Origin: a virus
DNA length: 39,567 nucleotides
Virus record (IMG/VR): IMGVR_UViG_3300020281_000054
Coordinates: 1-39,567 of that record
Strand: one strand, 5' to 3'
Positions 9,593 to 19,822 of the stretch are shown piece by piece (position 1 is the first letter of the stretch; each line of letters starts with the position of its first letter). The notes under the pieces were generated by a model. It was not told where the DNA came from, did not search any database, and saw only the letters and a list, made by a program, of their open reading frames with translations. The translations under genes and the position numbers were made by a program.

Positions 9593-10090
9593 TTATTTAG
9601 CGAGTTTCTTGAAATGAAATTCTCCATCTTTTTCCTCTTTTCCCCAAACAAAAGCACCTGATCGTAGTCTTCGACCGTTATCGAATGACCAGTAATCGGT
9701 GCCATTGAATCTAGCAAGTGCAGTTATGTTTATATCATTGACAACACAAGGACCATTGGTTTCACCCCACCATGTGCCGTCGTCCATCTTTACAAAAACA
9801 AATCCACATCCTTTCTTATTTTTCTTAAGATCTAATGTGTCGCATTCAATGATGTCTTCATGAATTCGTTTTATCTTTGCTCTAAAATGTTTATAAGGTT
9901 TATTAGGACCTTCATACTCATACCAAGATTTACATTCTAAAATCTTACCCTTCTTTATCTCAGTCCATTCTATGTTGACCCATGGCCACTTCTGTGGATC
10001 TGATGTTGCTTGAGCTTTATTAGTATAATGTCCACATAATGCTTCTTCAAAACTAATCATTTTTAAGTGATTTCTTAACCATTTCAGCAT
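9593..10090 (-). CDS. cpeT: CpeT-like phycobiliprotein lyase family protein (165 aa)
   Basis: CpeT/CpcT lyases attach bilin chromophores to cysteines of phycobiliproteins; phage versions are auxiliary metabolic genes. The family pattern is visible: G-H-Y-T-N-K-A-Q-A near residue 20, Y-E-Y then a K-P-Y-K-H-F-R segment mid-protein, a W-W-G-E...C stretch, and a C-terminal D-N-G-R-x-x-R-S-G-A-F-V-W-G-K-E ending F-x-F. At 165 aa it is shorter than typical host CpeT (about 200 aa). The ATG at 10090 is chosen because GAGGTG lies about 5 bases upstream; an ATG at 10060 would instead overlap the preceding stop as ATGATTAG. Activity is inferred from family. Confidence 0.7.
   Translation of the reverse strand: MLKWLRNHLKMISFEEALCGHYTNKAQATSDPQKWPWVNIEWTEIKKGKILECKSWYEYEGPNKPYKHFRAKIKRIHEDIIECDTLDLKKNKKGCGFVFVKMDDGTWWGETNGPCVVNDINITALARFNGTDYWSFDNGRRLRSGAFVWGKEEKDGEFHFKKLAK
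9594..9601 (-). promoter_or_regulatory. Late-promoter-like box (GCTAAATA) before gp5
   Basis: Minus-strand GCTAAATA, 22 bases before the gp5 ATG and overlapping the end of the CpeT-like gene. It matches the TAAATA core of T4 late promoters at the usual distance. Confidence 0.4.
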
Positions 10091-11146: not shown

Positions 11147-12556
11147 CTATTTATCTTCTCGGATAGAGTCCTTAGTAAGATAAAGAGTGGTTGTCATACC
11201 TTCTTTACGATAGATGTGTTTCAAACTGGCAATCAAATACTTACCACTATATACACGATCTTGCTTCACATCTTTAGAATTATCAGTCCTAGATGCGGGA
11301 ATGCTGACTTTTACTATCTTTCCAACTGCTAAAGTTGTATTGCCAGGCACAACTATTGTCAACTGAATAGCGTTAAGTAATGCATATCTAGCAACAGCAT
11401 AACTTGATACGCTTAATGTGTCAAACTTTGTCTTCGTACCACCATCTGGATCACTACCTATACTAGACTGATGAGTCCAAGTTGGCATGATTCTAAACTT
11501 ATATCTTGTAGCAGGTTGTGTTTCTGTATCAAAACCTGTCTGTTGAAATGGTCTACCTCTATCGATAGTAGATGCTTTATCAAAAGTGCTCTCATAAGTG
11601 GTAGTAAAGTTATTACGTTTTACTTCTGTAGATTTCTCATTACCTTCACTTGATGATCCTGTAGGCATGTGACTTAAACTAACAGAGGGCACAGATATAC
11701 CTAACACTGATGTTTTATATAAACCTGATCTTAATTTTTCTAAATGATTAACTTTATCAGGGAAAGATATGGATTCTATCTTAAAATATTCCTTGATAGG
11801 ATCTGTCTCTACACCTGCCTGCATGTAGGTGTATGTGGGAATATTCAACGGCTCTTGTGAGCATAACTTATCGATAGATTGAAAGTTAAATCCATGTCTA
11901 TTTTCATAGAATAAGAAACCTGATTGCATTACAGATCTCTTACCACCACCCTCAAGTCTCAATACCTTGTCACCAAGATATGTAATAGCATCATAAGGTC
12001 TCCAATTAGGACAACTGAAGCATAATTTACTATGATTCTCAAAGTTTACTGCTTTTACTTTCTCTCCACCTTTCAATATATCTTTAGCAACATACTTAGG
12101 AAAATTTACTTTATCTTTATGTTTCTCACAAGGTCCGAATGCACCAAAGATTCTATTTGCCTCATTTAAAAATGCTTCATGAGATGTAAGATGTAAAATA
12201 TACATCGCTGCTCTCTCATTCTTGATAAAACTACCAAGTTTAAATACACGAAAGATAACTTCTAAAGGATCAGAATCTGAGCTTTCTGTTGTTACTTTTA
12301 TTTTAACAACCTCTTTACCACGAATCTGTTTGTATAGATCAATAGAGTCAACTATTGTCATGTCACATCTTAGAAATGGACTATCGATAGACTCCATGTA
12401 TTCCATAGACGCAACAAGATCACGGATATCGTATACCTCGTCTCCCTTATATCTTGCTTTAGGTGACAAAGCCTCCTGCCACTCCATCTTACCAGTTTCA
12501 CCAAAGGCAATGGATGCTTCATTCAGCTCTACAATTTTTGATCTTCTATTTGCCAT
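11147..12556 (-). CDS. 27: gp27-like baseplate hub protein (469 aa)
   Basis: Hub protein expected to form the ring linking the tail tube to the gp5 spike. The N-terminal third has the tube/hub-like pattern S-P-F-L-R-C-D-M-T-I-V-D-S, then E-V-V-K-I-K-V and V-F-K-L-G; the C-terminal third (about 385-465) ends in a beta-rich segment with G-K-I-V-K-V-S-I-P and Y-S-G-K-Y-L-I-A-S, typical of gp27-type hubs. It lies between the tape-measure genes and gp5, where T4-like cyanophages place the hub. Its ATG overlaps the upstream stop as TAATG. Assignment rests on pattern and synteny. Confidence 0.7.
   Translation of the reverse strand: MANRRSKIVELNEASIAFGETGKMEWQEALSPKARYKGDEVYDIRDLVASMEYMESIDSPFLRCDMTIVDSIDLYKQIRGKEVVKIKVTTESSDSDPLEVIFRVFKLGSFIKNERAAMYILHLTSHEAFLNEANRIFGAFGPCEKHKDKVNFPKYVAKDILKGGEKVKAVNFENHSKLCFSCPNWRPYDAITYLGDKVLRLEGGGKRSVMQSGFLFYENRHGFNFQSIDKLCSQEPLNIPTYTYMQAGVETDPIKEYFKIESISFPDKVNHLEKLRSGLYKTSVLGISVPSVSLSHMPTGSSSEGNEKSTEVKRNNFTTTYESTFDKASTIDRGRPFQQTGFDTETQPATRYKFRIMPTWTHQSSIGSDPDGGTKTKFDTLSVSSYAVARYALLNAIQLTIVVPGNTTLAVGKIVKVSIPASRTDNSKDVKQDRVYSGKYLIASLKHIYRKEGMTTTLYLTKDSIREDK
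11148..11155 (-). promoter_or_regulatory. Late-promoter-like box (GATAAATA) before CP12
   Basis: Minus-strand GATAAATA, one mismatch from the T4 late box, 24 bases before the CP12 start and inside the last codons of the hub gene. Confidence 0.45.
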
Positions 12557-15288
12557 TATTTAAGATTGTGTGTGCAGTGCATATCAGGTTTTGTGCTTCT
12601 AAATTGATCAAACTTAGAAACAAAGAATGGATCTGCTTCATTCCACTGGAAGAAGTTAGGTGTAATAATAGGAATGTCTTCTGGTTGTCCTCCACCTCCA
12701 TCTACTTGAGCATTTGCCATTGTTGATACTGCAGTATTTTGTTGCTCTATAGCAGATGCCATGGCTGCGTTGCTTTCAGTTACCATCTTTTGCAACTCAG
12801 CATTCTCTTGTATTCTATATTCATTTATTTTATCACCAACGAAATCTTTGATATCTTTAGCTTTCTCAACCACAGGATTCAAGAGTTTCTCTAGATCAGC
12901 GGGATCATTTCCCTTTTTAAAACGTGATATCTTTCTTGTATTTTCTCTATTCTTAAATGCATATTCACCTCTCTCATTGTCCTGTTGATCGCCACTAAAG
13001 TTACCACCCTCTCTACCTCTATCCTTGGCACCTGATCCTCTTAAATTTTTCTTTGTGCCATCCGCTTTAGTTATAGTTGCTTTTGAGTTAGTCTCATTCC
13101 ATCCCATCTTCATGTTAACATAATCAGCGATAGGCATCTGTGCTTCCTGATAGTTACCATCTGTATAGAATGTATTTTTCATTCTCCTCTTTCCTTTCTT
13201 CAATCCTAAGAAACCTGTCCTATAGTATTCCCAAGGTCCATAAATTGTAACACCTCTAAAATCACCCGCAGCAACATCGTCTACAGTCCCACCTGCTGCG
13301 ATTAACTCTTGATATGAATTATATTCACCACCTGCAGCGAAAGGTAAAGCATAACCTTTATTCGCTGCTTCTTTCATTCTTTGACCAGTTAGACCTGCAT
13401 TTGATTTTGTCTTAGGTGTATTAAATGGGACGATAAATGCTGATCCACCAGTTGCTTTCTTAGGATATCCAACCCACTCTAAACCGTGACCAATGAATGA
13501 AGTAGATTTACCACCATCTAAACTTACAGGATAACCAGACTGAGGACCATTGATCCATCCACCTAATTTACCACCACCTGCAAACCAGTTATTAGGGTTT
13601 AACCATCCACCACCGCCGTCTCCTTCCTTTAGGAGTCCGACCATCTTCTTCATATATCCTAAAACATTACCTAGTGCACCATTAACATCACTATCCTGAG
13701 ATGCTTCTCCTAAATCTGCAGCTTCTCCACCTTTTGCCATTTCTGGGACAACTACAATACCACCCTCTGCCTTTGGCTCAACACCATAATTAGAAAGTTT
13801 CTCAGCTCGACTCATGTTGTAGAAAGCAACATATTCATCTGTAGAAACTTCTTTATCGTTGATATATGCCTTACCAGTATCCATGTCGAATCGACCCGAT
13901 ACAGTTTTCTTAGTAGTAGTTTTTACTTCTTTGGCTTGTTTCTTAGCTACTTCCTTTTTCGGTTGCTTATCTTTATCTGATCCACCTGCAAAGAAACCTA
14001 ATACAAAAGTCAATGCTTTCATCAATCCAATCAAAGGTGCAAATGCTACTGTGCCAAAGAATGCACCAACTTTCTTGATAGTCGGCATTGCTGGCTCAAT
14101 AAAATCTAAGACCGCACTAAATGCACCACCAAGTGCCTTAAAGAAATCTCCTGCTGCCTCTTGTATAGGTGTAAAGACTGCTGAGAATATTTCACCAACT
14201 TGTGCGAAGAATTGCTTGAATGGTGCAATAATAGGCTCCATTGCTTTAGCAATACCTCCACCTGCTGCTCCACCAACAAATGCACCTGCTGCTTGACCTA
14301 ACATTGCTCCGCCAGGTATTCCAGTTGCTGCTCCAATAGCACCACCTATCTGTGATCCTGCTCCTGCTCCAATACCAGTACCTATTGCCTCTGCCTGATC
14401 CATGCCTGCTAGACGAGCCGTTGCATACGCTGCACCACCAAAGGCACTACCACGCAACAGATTACCACCTAGAGTTGTGCCTGCAAATTTCTTAAGTCTA
14501 CCACCTATTTTACCCGCTTTCATTAGGTTTTTCACCATGCCAAATAGCATGCCTACTACTGCCTTAATACCTTTGAGTGCTGCTAGTGGATTTGAGAGTA
14601 TAGCAAACCCTGCAAACAAAGGTGCTAATGATAAAGCAAATTGCATCACCCCAAAGAATCCTTTTAAACTTAATGGATTCTCTAAGAATTTCATAAGACC
14701 ATTTGCTGCAGATCCCCCAAGGAAACTAATTACACCAAACGCCCACTTACCTATCTCATATAAACCTTTTGCCAGTCGTTTGACTTTTTCTGGATTCTTC
14801 ATCAAGAAGTCAAATATTGCAAACTTAACTATACCTGAGAATAACCACTCAGCAATCTTAGCGAATGTCTGAAAGAATCCTCCAAACATTGCTTTAGTTA
14901 CTGCACCAAGTCTCTCAATGAATCTATTAGATTCTTTCTTTACATCTGCAGCTTCGTCTCTCTTTTCTCTTTGCTCTACTTTCTTCTTTGTTATTACCTC
15001 TCTATTTCTTTCACGTTTCTCTTCTTCATCTTTCCTCTTTCTATATCTCTCAGTTATACCTCTTTCTGATATCTGGAAATCTACTATCTCTTTCATAGTG
15101 CCTGCCATCTTATTAGCAACTATTGAAAGAGAGTTTACAGTAGCACCAAGACTATTGACAGCACTTAGATTTACCTTCAATCCCTCATTCATATCCTTGG
15201 TTTCTTTACTCGCACTCTTATCCACTCCCTTGAAAGATACCATCTTATAAAGGGCAGGTTTCTTAATAGTGGTCTTAGGTTTATCCAT
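12556..15288 (-). CDS. Tape-measure-like tail protein 2 (910 aa)
   Basis: Architecture of a tail tape-measure or inner-tube protein: N-terminal charged coiled coil (about 70-130, E-R-Y-R-K-R-K-D-E-E-E-K-R), hydrophobic helices (about 135-270), an Ala/Gly-rich glycine-zipper stretch (about 270-350), more hydrophobic helices to about 430, then a hydrophilic region with repeated F-A-A/A-A-G-G-E type motifs. The order and the glycine-zipper and E-P-I-I-A-P-F segments closely parallel the upstream 929-aa protein, so the two look like tandem paralogues. It lacks the transglycosylase-like domain. Both ends are coupled as TAATG. A role in setting tail length is inferred. Confidence 0.6.
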   Translation of the reverse strand: MDKPKTTIKKPALYKMVSFKGVDKSASKETKDMNEGLKVNLSAVNSLGATVNSLSIVANKMAGTMKEIVDFQISERGITERYRKRKDEEEKRERNREVITKKKVEQREKRDEAADVKKESNRFIERLGAVTKAMFGGFFQTFAKIAEWLFSGIVKFAIFDFLMKNPEKVKRLAKGLYEIGKWAFGVISFLGGSAANGLMKFLENPLSLKGFFGVMQFALSLAPLFAGFAILSNPLAALKGIKAVVGMLFGMVKNLMKAGKIGGRLKKFAGTTLGGNLLRGSAFGGAAYATARLAGMDQAEAIGTGIGAGAGSQIGGAIGAATGIPGGAMLGQAAGAFVGGAAGGGIAKAMEPIIAPFKQFFAQVGEIFSAVFTPIQEAAGDFFKALGGAFSAVLDFIEPAMPTIKKVGAFFGTVAFAPLIGLMKALTFVLGFFAGGSDKDKQPKKEVAKKQAKEVKTTTKKTVSGRFDMDTGKAYINDKEVSTDEYVAFYNMSRAEKLSNYGVEPKAEGGIVVVPEMAKGGEAADLGEASQDSDVNGALGNVLGYMKKMVGLLKEGDGGGGWLNPNNWFAGGGKLGGWINGPQSGYPVSLDGGKSTSFIGHGLEWVGYPKKATGGSAFIVPFNTPKTKSNAGLTGQRMKEAANKGYALPFAAGGEYNSYQELIAAGGTVDDVAAGDFRGVTIYGPWEYYRTGFLGLKKGKRRMKNTFYTDGNYQEAQMPIADYVNMKMGWNETNSKATITKADGTKKNLRGSGAKDRGREGGNFSGDQQDNERGEYAFKNRENTRKISRFKKGNDPADLEKLLNPVVEKAKDIKDFVGDKINEYRIQENAELQKMVTESNAAMASAIEQQNTAVSTMANAQVDGGGGQPEDIPIITPNFFQWNEADPFFVSKFDQFRSTKPDMHCTHNLK

Positions 15289-18077
15289 TACTTATGAATA
15301 GCTGGATGTAAAGGAGTAAAGATTTGTACAGGATTTTGTCCACCACCTTGTCCTCCACTATTTATTGGGACTGGGACAGAGACTGGGACTATGTTACCTG
15401 CCATGGCAGCACCACTTTCTAAATCTTTTTGTTGTTGTGCACTTGTTTTTATTTTATCACTGTAATCTGTGCTAGTACCTGCTGTTGGAGGAGGTGTAAG
15501 ATGAGGTTGAATCAGATCAATACCCTCTTGAAGCACATTCTTTGCCATTGATGCTAAGGTGTTAAGTAAATTTCCTTTCTTTGCTTGTGGTTTCGTCTCC
15601 TCTTTCGTCTCTACCTCTGAATCTGACTCCTCTTTTGACCCTTTCGCTGCAGGATCAGGGATAGATGTTGGTTTAGCACTAGATTCTGGTAACTCAATTT
15701 GATCTGCAAATGCTTTCTTTAATGCTTCATAGAATTTAGTGCTCTTTGTGCCAAATCCGTCTTCAGATACCTCACCTGACTGTAACCATTTCAATGCAGC
15801 ATTCCACCCTGTGTTGTGTGCATAACCCAAGATTGCCATCTGATCTAACTTAGGTCTCTCCATAAACTCTTTGTATGGAGATAAGTATGACATATTTGCA
15901 GCAGTATATCCTGCAAGTAGATTCTCCTGCAATTCCTTATTCCTTCTGAATATTATTCTCATTGGAAGACTATGACCAGGATCTTGGATACCAAACATCC
16001 TTGCACCATCAGTCTTTGCCATGGCACCCATTTGATATCTACCATCATATTTTCCTTCACTACCACCTATTGCAAGATAGTTATCACTAGATTCAATGCC
16101 AGCTAGTGTATTTCTATAGGTATCCCATACACTTGAATCTACACCTAACTTTGATTTTACAAAGTCATATGGGACTTTTACATCACCACCTAAATCTTTC
16201 TCTTCTGTTGGCACATCATTTCTTTCTAGTTTTGCTACTGCTTTTTTAAGGACAGCTATCATACCTGTTGCAAAGAAAACTAATGACTTTCTAAGAGCAA
16301 ATCTAAATATTCCACCTGCAGCAAATTCTTCTGGCTCTGCTACGTTTGGTTTCTGTATTATAACCTTTGGTTTTATCAACTGTTTGTTATCTACATTTCC
16401 TGTGATAACCTCAGCATTGAAGAATTTTCCAAAATATTTTCCACCCTTGTCAAACTGCTCAAGATCTGGTTTTTTCTCTGATCCTTTTGCATTTGCTACC
16501 TGATTTATATCTACGTTTCTGCCAGGATCCTTACGTCTTATAACATCCCATGCAAATCCTATGGGATTTAAGGTAAATGCGACAATATTCTTAATTAAAT
16601 TAAAGGTAAATGACAATACTTTAAAGATTGTCTTCATAGCACCACCCAATACTAGACCCACAAACTTCATGATAGGAGTAATTGCCTTCATGATAGTGCT
16701 AACAATATTACCCAATGCCTTGAAGAATGTGCCAAGTAACTCCTTCATTGGCTCAATCACTGGCATAAGTGGTGCTAGGAATACATCCTTAAACATGCCA
16801 AATGCTCGTGCCATAGGCTCAAAGATAGGTTGGACAATAGGTCCTATCTTACTACCAATAAATCCACCTAAAAAGTCACCAATAGCAGCACCTATCATAG
16901 GTCCGAAAGGTCCTAGGAATGGTAACAATGCACCACCTGCTGCTGCTCCTGCTACACCACCGATTGCTTTACCTACACCTGCTCCTACTGCTGTACCTGC
17001 TGCCTCTCCTTCTTGATCTCCTGCCAATGCTCTTGATAAACCACCAACTACAGATGTGGCACCTGCCAACATAGTAGCACCGCCACCAGGTATCCTTCCT
17101 TTTATTCCTTTGAATGCATTACTCATACGTCTGGTAGCACCCATTCTCATGCCACCAATCTTTGTGGTTGGTCTGACTCTATTCTCAAATGATTTTATAC
17201 CGCCAGGTTTCTTCCTAGCAGCTTTACGCATTGTGTTATATTCTTGCTTTGTATAGTAACGACCAGTCTTCTTATCATAATATCCACTCTTTACCCTTTG
17301 AGTTGCTTGATTTGCACCCTCCTCAGCTGTCTTAGCGTTTGAAAAAATATCTTGTAGTTTTTTAACATCACCAAATAATTTCCATGGCATAAGAATGTAT
17401 TGTGCACCTTTGAGAGCTGCAAGACCAACTAAGAATTGCAAACCACCTGTAAAGAATCTGAATACTCTCTGTATCTTATTTTCACCAGGTACTCCAGTCC
17501 CAAACATTCTGACCATGCCATTGAAGACCTGACCTATACCGAAACTAGTGATTTTAAATACAAACTTTACTAGTGATGCGACTATCTTAAATACTGTTTT
17601 TATTGCCTCTCCATTCTTTTGCATCCATGTAAGACCACCAAACAATGCAAACGCACCAAATAACGTGCCGAAGAAACCACCAATCCTTGCAAGCATTTTC
17701 TTGAAAGGTGATAGTATTTCCTTTGCTTCTTTCTTTTGTGCTTCTTGCTTTTCTTTAGCAAGTTGTTTTGCTAGTTTTGCAGAATCCTCACGTCTCTTAC
17801 GAAACGCAGCTCTTCTTTCTTGTACCTTTAAACGAGATGCAAGAAGTTTCTTTTCTCTATCTTTTGCTTGCTCATATACCCTATCTTTCTGCGACGTCTC
17901 TTGTATAAAAGTTTTCTGAAATTCGAGTAGTGTTAATGATGACTCAAATGATTTACCTATACTAGTAGTTGATCTACCAAGTCTGTTCAGGCTCAATCGA
18001 AGACCATTCATGTTGCGACCTACATCGGTCGAGGTCTTAAACGCTTTGACTCTTACAAATGAGCGAATTGCTGACAT
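15288..18077 (-). CDS. Tape-measure-like tail protein 1 with lytic transglycosylase-like domain (929 aa)
   Basis: N-terminal coiled coil (about 65-120), hydrophobic helices (125-230), glycine-zipper (335-410), hydrophobic helices (410-510), then a soluble domain at about 635-795. That domain has the lysozyme/SLT layout: A-G-I-E-S-S with likely catalytic E662, G-K-Y-D-G-R-Y-Q-M-G at 675-684, and G-Y-A-H-N-T-G-W at 751-758 in place of 'AYNxG'. It would cut peptidoglycan during DNA injection, a common job of a tape-measure C-terminal domain. The C-terminus is Pro/Gly-rich. It starts as TAATG on the frameshift ORF directly behind gp26, the canonical place for a tape measure. Enzyme activity is inferred from motif. 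Confidence 0.7.
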   Translation of the reverse strand: MSAIRSFVRVKAFKTSTDVGRNMNGLRLSLNRLGRSTTSIGKSFESSLTLLEFQKTFIQETSQKDRVYEQAKDREKKLLASRLKVQERRAAFRKRREDSAKLAKQLAKEKQEAQKKEAKEILSPFKKMLARIGGFFGTLFGAFALFGGLTWMQKNGEAIKTVFKIVASLVKFVFKITSFGIGQVFNGMVRMFGTGVPGENKIQRVFRFFTGGLQFLVGLAALKGAQYILMPWKLFGDVKKLQDIFSNAKTAEEGANQATQRVKSGYYDKKTGRYYTKQEYNTMRKAARKKPGGIKSFENRVRPTTKIGGMRMGATRRMSNAFKGIKGRIPGGGATMLAGATSVVGGLSRALAGDQEGEAAGTAVGAGVGKAIGGVAGAAAGGALLPFLGPFGPMIGAAIGDFLGGFIGSKIGPIVQPIFEPMARAFGMFKDVFLAPLMPVIEPMKELLGTFFKALGNIVSTIMKAITPIMKFVGLVLGGAMKTIFKVLSFTFNLIKNIVAFTLNPIGFAWDVIRRKDPGRNVDINQVANAKGSEKKPDLEQFDKGGKYFGKFFNAEVITGNVDNKQLIKPKVIIQKPNVAEPEEFAAGGIFRFALRKSLVFFATGMIAVLKKAVAKLERNDVPTEEKDLGGDVKVPYDFVKSKLGVDSSVWDTYRNTLAGIESSDNYLAIGGSEGKYDGRYQMGAMAKTDGARMFGIQDPGHSLPMRIIFRRNKELQENLLAGYTAANMSYLSPYKEFMERPKLDQMAILGYAHNTGWNAALKWLQSGEVSEDGFGTKSTKFYEALKKAFADQIELPESSAKPTSIPDPAAKGSKEESDSEVETKEETKPQAKKGNLLNTLASMAKNVLQEGIDLIQPHLTPPPTAGTSTDYSDKIKTSAQQQKDLESGAAMAGNIVPVSVPVPINSGGQGGGQNPVQIFTPLHPAIHK

Positions 18078-18280
18078 TAGAGATTAACTCGATTCCTGTT
18101 ATTCTCTGCTGCACGGCGTCTTTCCTCTTCTTGGAGGAAGGCGAGTAACAAATTAACATAAACATCACGCTCCCATGGGATCATATTCTCTAACTCGGTC
18201 AAAGAATATTTGTGATGTTGCATCAACGCAAAATTAGTCTTGTATAAGTTTTCAAGACTGTCATGCAACAGGGCTATGCG
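18077..18280 (-). CDS. -1 frame extension of gp26 (tail-assembly chaperone T-like domain)
   Basis: A 67-codon segment in the -1 frame of gp26 that begins at the slippery site and ends as TAATG with the tape-measure gene. It has no ATG near its beginning: the longest independent start is TTG at 18268 (63 aa), and the first in-frame ATG is 15 codons later. It reads H-H-K-Y-S-L-T-E-L-E-N-M-I-P-W-E-R-D-V-Y and then a charged helix, the pattern of the short downstream partner of phage tail-assembly chaperone pairs (lambda T in GT; possibly the gp51 counterpart). A frameshift would give a protein of about 302 aa (235 from gp26 plus 67). Confidence 0.65.
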   Translation of the reverse strand, partial: RIALLHDSLENLYKTNFALMQHHKYSLTELENMIPWERDVYVNLLLAFLQEEERRRAAENNRNRVNL

Positions 18281-18984
18281 AAAAAAGCTGCTAAACCCTC
18301 AAATGTTATATCATTATCTTTTTTGGTTTTAGGGTTTCGCACAGTCATAGTATATGAAAGTTTTGGAATAGTCTCAAAGAATGTCTGGATCTTAGCGAAT
18401 TGGTCTGAATTTAGACTTTCTAGAAAATCCACTGCTTCTTTCTTGGTGAAACTATCATAAACTTCATCACCATCGAAAGCTTGAGCAATACATCCTGCTG
18501 CTAATTGAAAAACATCATCAATGGTTTGCTCTCCTTCTGTCATATTTTGTTGGACGAAAATGTCAAGTGAAGGATACTTCATAAGGACTCCAACATCATC
18601 AGTAAACATGATCTTAGGGTCATGATCCTCAGGCACTTGAAGCTCCACTTTGTCTAGTGGGACTTTAACATCTACTTGTGTGACTTCATCGTCAGGGCAG
18701 GTTACCTTAAATTCGCTGACCTCACCGACCGCTTTCGAGCGGATCTTGAGGAAAACGTATTCAATTTCAAATGTCGCAAGTTTCTCAACGTCTTTATCAG
18801 AGAGTGAAGTGCAGTTTTTGATAATTGTTTTGACCGCCTTAACCATCTCCTTCTCATTCTTCGATTCCATCGCAAGGTATAGGAGTTTCTCCTCCTTGAC
18901 GAGGAATGGTCGGTAAGATAATTTCTTACCTGTAAGAGGGATTTTAAGGTCATGCTCAGGTAACGCAAGTTTAGGTAATGGCAT
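18274..18984 (-). CDS. 26: gp26 baseplate hub / tail-assembly chaperone (236 aa)
   Basis: Matches the T4 gp26 family (Pfam T4_baseplate): MPLPKL, then K-I-P-L-T-G-K-K-L-S-Y-R-P-F-L-V-K-E-E-K, then L-L-Y-L-A-M-E-S near residue 35-41. Length is close to T4 gp26 (208 aa). It acts in building the central baseplate hub. Position directly upstream of two tape-measure-like genes, with a frameshift cassette at its 3' end, suggests the lambda gpG-like chaperone role that keeps the tape measure soluble. The start at 18984 has a TAAATA box 20 bases upstream. Confidence 0.8.
   Translation of the reverse strand: MPLPKLALPEHDLKIPLTGKKLSYRPFLVKEEKLLYLAMESKNEKEMVKAVKTIIKNCTSLSDKDVEKLATFEIEYVFLKIRSKAVGEVSEFKVTCPDDEVTQVDVKVPLDKVELQVPEDHDPKIMFTDDVGVLMKYPSLDIFVQQNMTEGEQTIDDVFQLAAGCIAQAFDGDEVYDSFTKKEAVDFLESLNSDQFAKIQTFFETIPKLSYTMTVRNPKTKKDNDITFEGLAAFFA
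18280..18300 (-). promoter_or_regulatory. Candidate programmed -1 frameshift site
   Basis: On the minus strand, gp26 ends GAGGG-TTTAGCAGC-TTTTTTC-GCA-TAG. T TTT TTC in the gp26 frame is a canonical X XXY YYZ slippery heptamer (18280-18286), two codons before the stop. GAGGG (18296-18300), nine bases upstream, matches a Shine-Dalgarno stimulator at the spacing seen in E. coli dnaX. Only a weak downstream stem (CTGT/ACAG) is visible. The -1 frame is open across the site into the 63-aa ORF. Confidence 0.65.
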
Positions 18985-19003: not shown

Positions 19004-19011
19004 TATTTAGA
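19004..19011 (-). promoter_or_regulatory. Late-promoter-like box (TCTAAATA) before gp26
   Basis: Minus-strand TCTAAATA 20 bases before the gp26 start, at the end of the upstream gene; same TAAATA core as the other candidate late boxes. Confidence 0.4.
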
Positions 19012-19822
19012 GACCAATTCCGACAAAATTGTCAAGACTGGAATCTATACTAAGTGATGATAGCACATCGTCGTTGTCAACTGGAATAGTGACATCTTTG
19101 AGTGCACCTTTAAACATCTTAGCATTATTCGGTGTATCCATACGGTATCTTTCATAGTAGAAAGAAATATCTAATTTGATTAGATCTGTAGGTCCATTAT
19201 TTAGCGTGATTGCAGACATGTCAAATGGGAATGCCCCATACAGTGTCCAACATGCAGATACACCATTAAATCTACGCAATAATGTCCTCTCGTCTCCTAA
19301 TACTTTTCTAGTCTGAGATCCAACGTAGTTAGACGCTAATTCCCATTTGATTAGACGCATTGTAGTTGTATATTGATCATACATACCTACTCTATTCTCA
19401 GAGTCAGATGCAGTAAAATTCATCCACCTCTCAAAATACTCTCTATGATACATGTCCTTAGGTAGCAAGAATGATACTTGCACTTCACTAAAGGTTGTAT
19501 CTGTAGCAAACCGTCTCATAGCACCTACGTCCCTTACTGTGCCAACAGTTATTCGTCTACCAGGTATAGACACTGTATCAGCAAAGTAATTCATCATATC
19601 AGCATGCTCACGATATCTTGTCATTATCTTATTCTGCTGCTCAACTTCATCTTCAAACTGTAGTCCATTTGCCTCTTTCGCATGAAAAAGACCACCAATG
19701 CTTGTCATCACTGGCGGGGGTTGCACTACTACTTGAAAAAGATTAGACCTTGCAGGCTCCTTGTTACCTGTATTGATCTGCTCTCTAAAGTTATTAAATG
19801 AATTGGGTTCGTAGTAACTCAT
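19007..19822 (-). CDS. Tail-tube-like baseplate protein (271 aa), gp54/gp19 type
   Basis: Shows the fold pattern shared by T4 tail-tube gp19 and the tube-initiating baseplate proteins gp54/gp48: N-S-N-L-F-Q-V-V-V-type entry (R-S-N-L-F-Q-V-V-V), F-A-D-T-V-S-I-P-G-R-R-I-T, a strand E-V-Q-V-S-F-L-L, then Y-F-E-R-W-M-N-F and M-Y-D-Q-Y-T-T-T-M-R-L. It probably begins polymerisation of the tail tube on the hub, which would make it the gp54 counterpart; a second gp19-like tube protein cannot be excluded. Its start overlaps the preceding gene as ATGA. Confidence 0.6.
   Translation of the reverse strand: MSYYEPNSFNNFREQINTGNKEPARSNLFQVVVQPPPVMTSIGGLFHAKEANGLQFEDEVEQQNKIMTRYREHADMMNYFADTVSIPGRRITVGTVRDVGAMRRFATDTTFSEVQVSFLLPKDMYHREYFERWMNFTASDSENRVGMYDQYTTTMRLIKWELASNYVGSQTRKVLGDERTLLRRFNGVSACWTLYGAFPFDMSAITLNNGPTDLIKLDISFYYERYRMDTPNNAKMFKGALKDVTIPVDNDDVLSSLSIDSSLDNFVGIGL

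Follow-up and report, generated by a model that had tools for sequence, protein, structure and literature searches.

A very probable programmed -1 frameshift between gene 26 and a gp51 domain in a marine cyanophage and its relatives

Background

In phage lambda, the short tail chaperone G and its minor -1 frameshift extension GT are encoded between the tail-tube and tape-measure genes with GGGAAAG as the slippery sequence, and the dnaX signal of Escherichia coli comprises an A6G heptamer at which the shift truncates the protein. The tail chaperones gp26 and gp51 of T4-like phages were reportedly described by Vladimirov, Gautam and Davidson in 2022 (Virology 566:9-15). According to a passage that cites Vladimirov et al. 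2022, some T4-like phages carry short and long, fused chaperone genes in place of frameshifting (PMC10885494), and T4 gp26 and gp51 have been listed as hub assembly chaperones, with gp51 reported as needed for hub assembly and absent from the finished virion (PMC3004832). The tail chaperone locus of the Vandenendeviridae, represented by Pseudomonas phage Adele, precedes the tape measure and has a T-rich motif, and its -1 frame stays open where the short form ends (PMC12846349). Here we analysed gene 26 and the open reading frame (ORF) following it in the 39.6-kb IMG/VR record IMGVR_UViG_3300020281_000054, the whole of which is referred to as the window and whose nearest annotated relative is the cyanophage P-TIM40 of the Kyanoviridae (81% DNA identity across 82% of a 4-kb query). 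Programmed -1 frameshifting at a T TTT TTC heptamer near the end of gene 26 very probably yields gp26 and a gp26-gp51 fusion as short and long tail chaperones.

The site appears to resemble the arrangements of several other phages that make a short and a long chaperone from one gene. With the T4-like gp26/gp51 chaperones the window shares the PF12322 family, the short and long forms and the C-terminal gp51 domain, whereas T4 and its kin use two genes for the two forms and the window has one gene with a heptamer. Lambda G/GT is similar in its short form with a -1 extension and in its gene position, but no significant match was found by sequence or fold and the slippery sequences differ. In the Vandenendeviridae the short form likewise ends within an open -1 frame ahead of the tape measure and a T-rich motif is conserved, which is an invariant GTTTTT there and TTTTTTN here; the likeness is one of layout and motif. 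Like the window, E. coli dnaX combines a Shine-Dalgarno (SD)-like element about 10 nucleotides (nt) upstream, a homopolymeric heptamer and a downstream hairpin, the last being present in many of the clades compared here, but the dnaX shift at A6G truncates the protein, that of the window at T6C would extend it, and the genes are unrelated.

The slippery site at the end of gene 26

The following features of the window define the candidate frameshift site:
18274..18984, minus strand: gene 26, putative short chaperone form, 236 amino acids (PF12322, E 1.3e-65; PHROG_150, E 5.6e-70)
18280..18286, minus strand: slippery heptamer T TTT TTC, in phase as T TTT TTN in 200 of 202 non-redundant relatives
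18274..18276, minus strand: gp26 stop codon TAG, one codon past the heptamer, read in the sequence
18296..18300, minus strand: GAGGG, SD-like element ending 9 nt 5' of the heptamer, read in the sequence; GAG is enriched in relatives
18077..18280, minus strand: -1 frame extension corresponding to the gp51 domain, 67 codons and stop TAA (PHROG_634, E 4.7e-29; PHROG_150 positions 237-276)

The deduced gp26 protein scored 221.6 bits against PF12322, the cut-off of which is 24.5. The 3' end of the gene reads GAG GGT TTA GCA GCT TTT TTC GCA TAG, with the heptamer in X XXY YYZ phase and one sense codon between heptamer and stop. The -1 frame is open across the heptamer and ends with TAA at 18079-18077, overlapping the ATG of the downstream 929-amino-acid gene as TAATG, and the predicted fusion comprises about 302 amino acids (235 + 67). 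The short ORF listed for this frame (18077-18268, 63 amino acids) starts with TTG, and the first in-frame ATG lies 53 bases beyond the start of the gp26 stop codon. An earlier note, made from the letters of the window, had described all of these elements, namely the heptamer in frameshift phase, GAGGG nine bases upstream in a dnaX-like arrangement, the open -1 frame with its TTG start and TAATG end, and products of 236 and about 302 amino acids; each was recovered, with the heptamer at 18286-18280 and GAGGG at 18300-18296 on the minus strand. The number of heptamers was rejected as evidence on its own, since TTTTTTC occurs nine times in the window against 9.5 expected copies; chance is exceeded by the phase, position and conservation of the heptamer and not by its copy number.

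Conservation of the site in relatives

Relatives were pooled by searches with gp26 of the window, of Melnitz and of Aeromonas P19 and with the gp51 part alone, and annotated records were added; a search with the Vibrio D480 protein gave no match in IMG/VR. The census comprised 202 non-redundant loci (<95% identical). Excluded were L238, lacking the last gp26 codons, and L247, which has a frame break and retains the heptamer; both were judged defective or misassembled.

In a first set of 80 relatives and the window, NNT TTT TTC preceded the gp26 stop in 81 of 81 sequences. The census revealed an in-phase T TTT TTN zero to two codons ahead of the stop in 200 of the 202 loci (T6C 168, T7 16, T6A 14, T6G 2), and the extension is open in every relative whose end is visible, with 56-69 amino acids and never short.

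The codon usage at the site deviates from that of the remaining gene. At other gp26 positions phenylalanine is encoded by TTT in 71% of cases, and Phe-Phe pairs elsewhere in gp26 (n=160) are distributed as 95 TTC TTT, 50 TTT TTT, 11 TTC TTC and 4 TTT TTC, whereas the main class, which is defined by the heptamer, has TTT TTC in 163 of 163 loci. The codon ahead of TTT TTC always ends in T, and Ser, Ala and Gly codons elsewhere often end otherwise. The upstream glutamate is encoded by GAG in 128 of 159 relatives as opposed to 31% at other Glu codons (Fisher p 8e-37, uncorrected for relatedness), and GAGG ends 10 nt 5' of the heptamer in 150 of 200 loci. Judged from these codon statistics, the heptamer and the upstream GAG are constrained at the nucleotide level. 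The earlier note had suggested an alignment of relatives as a check on both elements, and both proved to be conserved, the heptamer together with the -1 ORF and GAG beyond the level of codon usage.

Relation to T4 gp26 and gp51

The view that the -1 ORF represents the tail domain of gp51 is supported by the profile PHROG_634 (gp51, baseplate hub assembly catalyst), which matched both the -1 ORF of the window and the C-terminal part of T4 gp51 (E 1e-23; residues 147-246). Moreover, T4 gp51 matched PF12322, the gp26 family, over residues 1-201 (E 4e-52). A direct alignment of T4 gp26 and gp51 gave 20% identity (E 2e-6), and a profile-profile comparison of cyanophage gp26 with gp51 gave 96.5% probability (E 9.5e-10). 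AlphaFold2 models of gp26 (predicted local distance difference test, pLDDT, 85) and of T4-type gp51 (pLDDT 88) have their elements in a similar order, gp51 having four helices past the last strand. T4 gp51 is a paralogue of gp26 whose own reading frame includes the part that is accessible to the cyanophage gene through a -1 shift.

PF12322 was detected twice in five genomes (T4, RB43, phiAS4, KARL-1 and a Krischvirus) and once in the 25 other records searched (18 + 7). The gp51 domain was found once in 21 of 23 records; in Stenotrophomonas YB07 and Vibrio K351 it was below the profile threshold although the -1 ORF is present. Genes for gp26 of the two-gene type with readable ends contained neither a heptamer in the last 12 codons nor a gp51-like -1 frame (L101 is cut off, and RB43 gp26 lies outside this reading). 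The heptamer and two-gene arrangements are mutually exclusive among the genomes searched, some of which are fragmentary IMG/VR records.

These data bear on the annotation of gp51, which has been described as a truncated gene in cyanophages and as lacking in Aeh1 (PMC3037559). Aeh1 contains GAT TTT TTC GAC TGA, and its -1 frame encodes a gp51 domain for which the record has no annotation. In the GenBank records (L082-L094, L278, L279, L281), gp51 is annotated with assorted internal starts (45-57 amino acids) or omitted, and a frameshift join is marked in none of those opened. The earlier note had spoken of a 'missing' gp51 of cyanomyoviruses: the fused domain was indeed located in the -1 frame, but many cyanophages do have an annotated gp51 in the form of a short or truncated gene, while others leave it out. 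A frameshift extension of gp26 would explain both the cyanophage gp51 that seems to miss its first ~200 residues and the apparent lack of gp51 in Aeh1, and many GenBank records with a truncated gp51 or none could be corrected.

RNA structure downstream of the heptamer

Two stems are predicted in the mRNA of the window downstream of the heptamer:
18236..18259, minus strand: inner mRNA stem-loop AGTCTTG/CAAGACT, 7 bp, 94% of cells paired in 17 sequences
18216..18270, minus strand: predicted outer stem around the inner one, TGTTGCAT/ATGCAACA, minimum free energy fold -16.1 kcal/mol

Six of the seven pairs of the inner stem show changes on both sides in the window clade (17 sequences), and the outer stem has 77% of cells paired in the register of the window, with another register being used by relatives. 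The structure of the window clade exceeded 500 of 500 shuffles in cells paired and covariation score as well as every slid register, statistics that are indicative since the shuffles leave relatedness in place. The P-SSM2-like phages have a different hairpin of 11 bp that starts 5 nt past the heptamer, with 93% paired and covariation mainly at one pair; RNA covariation is seen in these two clades. No single downstream structure was common to all relatives, as hairpins vary by clade and are absent in some. The Melnitz-like clade has kept the heptamer and has no hairpin and mostly no ATG.

Stability was expressed as a z-score against synonymous recodings that preserve the -1 protein. Across 120 loci, the first 50 nt past the heptamer stand out by their stability (mean z -2.33, with 62% of loci below -2), compared with mean values of -0.40 and -0.65 in two stretches further downstream and 0.11 in the 51 nt upstream of the heptamer, and the sliding profile rises from -2.2 to 0 by about +28. 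For the window, z over +1..+71 was -3.5 in one run and -2.4 in another with a different sample number and damping. The elements of a dnaX-type signal are present in the window, comprising the in-phase X XXY YYZ heptamer, an SD-like GAGG 10 nt upstream (within 9-14 nt) and a downstream stem-loop.

Start codons vary considerably in the -1 ORF, with an early ATG in 148 of 200 loci, GTG or TTG only in 17 and none in 35. The earlier statement that the short ORF lacks an ATG applies to the window, which has TTG only, but not to these 148 relatives. The clade-specific hairpins (window 18205-18280, minus strand; L002-L081) accompany the early in-frame ATG of the gp51 part: mean z over +1..+51 of the P-SSM2-like loci was -2.70 with an early ATG (n=125) and -1.18 without (n=10), and over +1..+71 of the window-like loci -2.95 (n=12) and 0.01 (n=9), respectively. 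Given this unexpected association, the hairpin may act as a stimulator of the shift, as a cover over the AUG, or in both ways. A main role in concealing a cryptic AUG of the gp51 part, with frameshift stimulation being secondary, would fit the excess structure at ATG-containing loci of both clades, but we consider this doubtful: the window and L002 are structured although they have no early ATG, a start 5-9 nt past the heptamer is also the usual place of a stimulator, and ATG and structure are confounded by clade.

Alternative explanations and strength of the frameshift reading

Improbable, in our judgement, is the production of gp51 as a separate small protein by re-initiation or translational coupling just past the gp26 stop, with the heptamer being incidental. 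The early ATG, which falls on the fourth residue past the slip in 111 loci and overlaps the stop codon in D480, nt-1, YB07, phiM9 and K351, would suit such a product, and annotators have called gp51 as its own gene. However, 52 of the 200 loci have no early ATG, including those without any start codon, and an SD-like 4-mer at a suitable distance precedes the early ATG at 1 of 148 loci. The earlier note had named an ATG with a ribosome site in relatives as evidence against a frameshift; the ATG is common, but no conserved independent start with a ribosome site was found. Since the ORF is kept also at loci without ATG, separate expression is unnecessary for its retention. A separate gp51 would moreover leave the in-phase T6N of 200 loci and the codon bias unexplained, and in T4 gp51 the homologous domain shares one continuous reading frame with a gp26-like protein. 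Slippage of the polymerase within the T run, which would draw on the six T and the seven T of one clade, is hardly credible, as six T are short for it, the seventh base is always C in the main class although TTT prevails among Phe codons elsewhere, the reverse of what would be expected if a longer run were selected, and the phase, SD-like element and hairpin indicate the ribosome.

Several observations weigh against frameshifting to tail chaperones as the general reading. Two loci of the census, Klebsiella UPM 2146 of the Ackermannviridae and Vibrio K351, deviate from the heptamer, and three more Ackermannviridae and Vibrio D509 resemble them. The Ackermannviridae (L089:2266-2350, L273, L274, L276) keep a gp51-like -1 ORF with the junction [A/G]TT TTC AT[T/C] TAA, and the near-identical Vibrio K351 and D509 (L090, L275) keep it with CTT TTC AAG TAATG, in both cases without a canonical heptamer. 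A lost heptamer with the ORF kept, named in the earlier note as contrary evidence, is therefore encountered at the margin of the data set, the heptamer being present otherwise; these phages may slip non-canonically at TTC, or they may re-initiate. The frequency of the early ATG makes some separately made gp51 possible in the majority of relatives. Finally, the gp26 model had no significant match to solved tail chaperones, with HK97 gp13 (2ob9) ranking eighth (E 2.1, probability 0.25), and 2ob9 was not among the 50 listed fold matches of the gp51 model. The models of gp26 and gp51 gave no significant PDB match that would indicate a lambda-like chaperone fold, and the sequence search found no solved relative.

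We infer the ribosomal shift because of the sequence, its conservation, the homology, the mutual exclusion of the two arrangements and the covarying RNA structure in two clades, and with it a fixed ratio of short to long form and a chaperone role. The -1 shift itself is, on this sequence-based evidence, highly probable; the chaperone role is less sure and draws on homology to T4 gp26/gp51 and on gene order. Ribosomes would mostly terminate at the gp26 stop, giving the 236-amino-acid gp26, and a minority of passes would slip by -1 at T TTT TTC into the gp26-gp51 fusion. As short and long forms of a tail assembly chaperone, the two products would assist the construction of hub and tube around the tape measure. 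In the T4 lineage, genes 26 and 51 would separately encode the same pair, gp51 having its C-terminal domain without any shift.

More tentatively, the clade-specific covarying hairpin of cyanophages might co-evolve with the gp51 AUG, setting the shift rate and hiding the AUG such that gp51 is made only as a fusion, and lineages might have changed how they set the proportion of short to long form, using the heptamer, some non-canonical signal in the Ackermannviridae, or duplication of the gene in T4. One frameshifted gene and two duplicated genes provide a simple pair for studying the proportion of short and long chaperones. Our literature search, in which Vladimirov et al. 2022 was represented by papers citing it, found no paper describing the cyanophage site. 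The idea of such a tail chaperone pair in T4-like phages is not new; hairpin, GAG constraint and census may or may not have been reported before.

Gene neighbourhood

Gene 26 of the window is flanked by two genes:
19007..19822, minus strand: tail tube-like gene directly upstream of gene 26 (PHROG_45 tail tube, E 2.2e-42)
15288..18077, minus strand: 929-amino-acid gene directly downstream, joined by the TAATG overlap, presumed tape measure (PHROG_90, named endolysin, E 4e-151; weaker tape-measure families, PHROG_167 E 2.7e-9)

The resulting gene order is tail tube, 26/51 and presumed tape measure. The 929-amino-acid protein is presumed to be the tape measure on weak family matches, and is named a putative tail tape measure in HTVC008M. 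Both long proteins of the region (15288-18077 and 12556-15288, minus strand) match endolysin-named PHROG families, probably because of stretches resembling lysozyme in tail proteins. Pelagiphage, methylophage and Sinorhizobium phages have an additional gene of ~110-140 amino acids that separates the gp51 extension from the long gene following it (L084:2403-2735, L085:2411-2740, L086:2365-2787); this gene is absent in the window. Additionally, a gene for a CpeT-like antenna protein is located among the tail genes of the window (9593-10090, minus strand; PHROG_488, E 1e-38).

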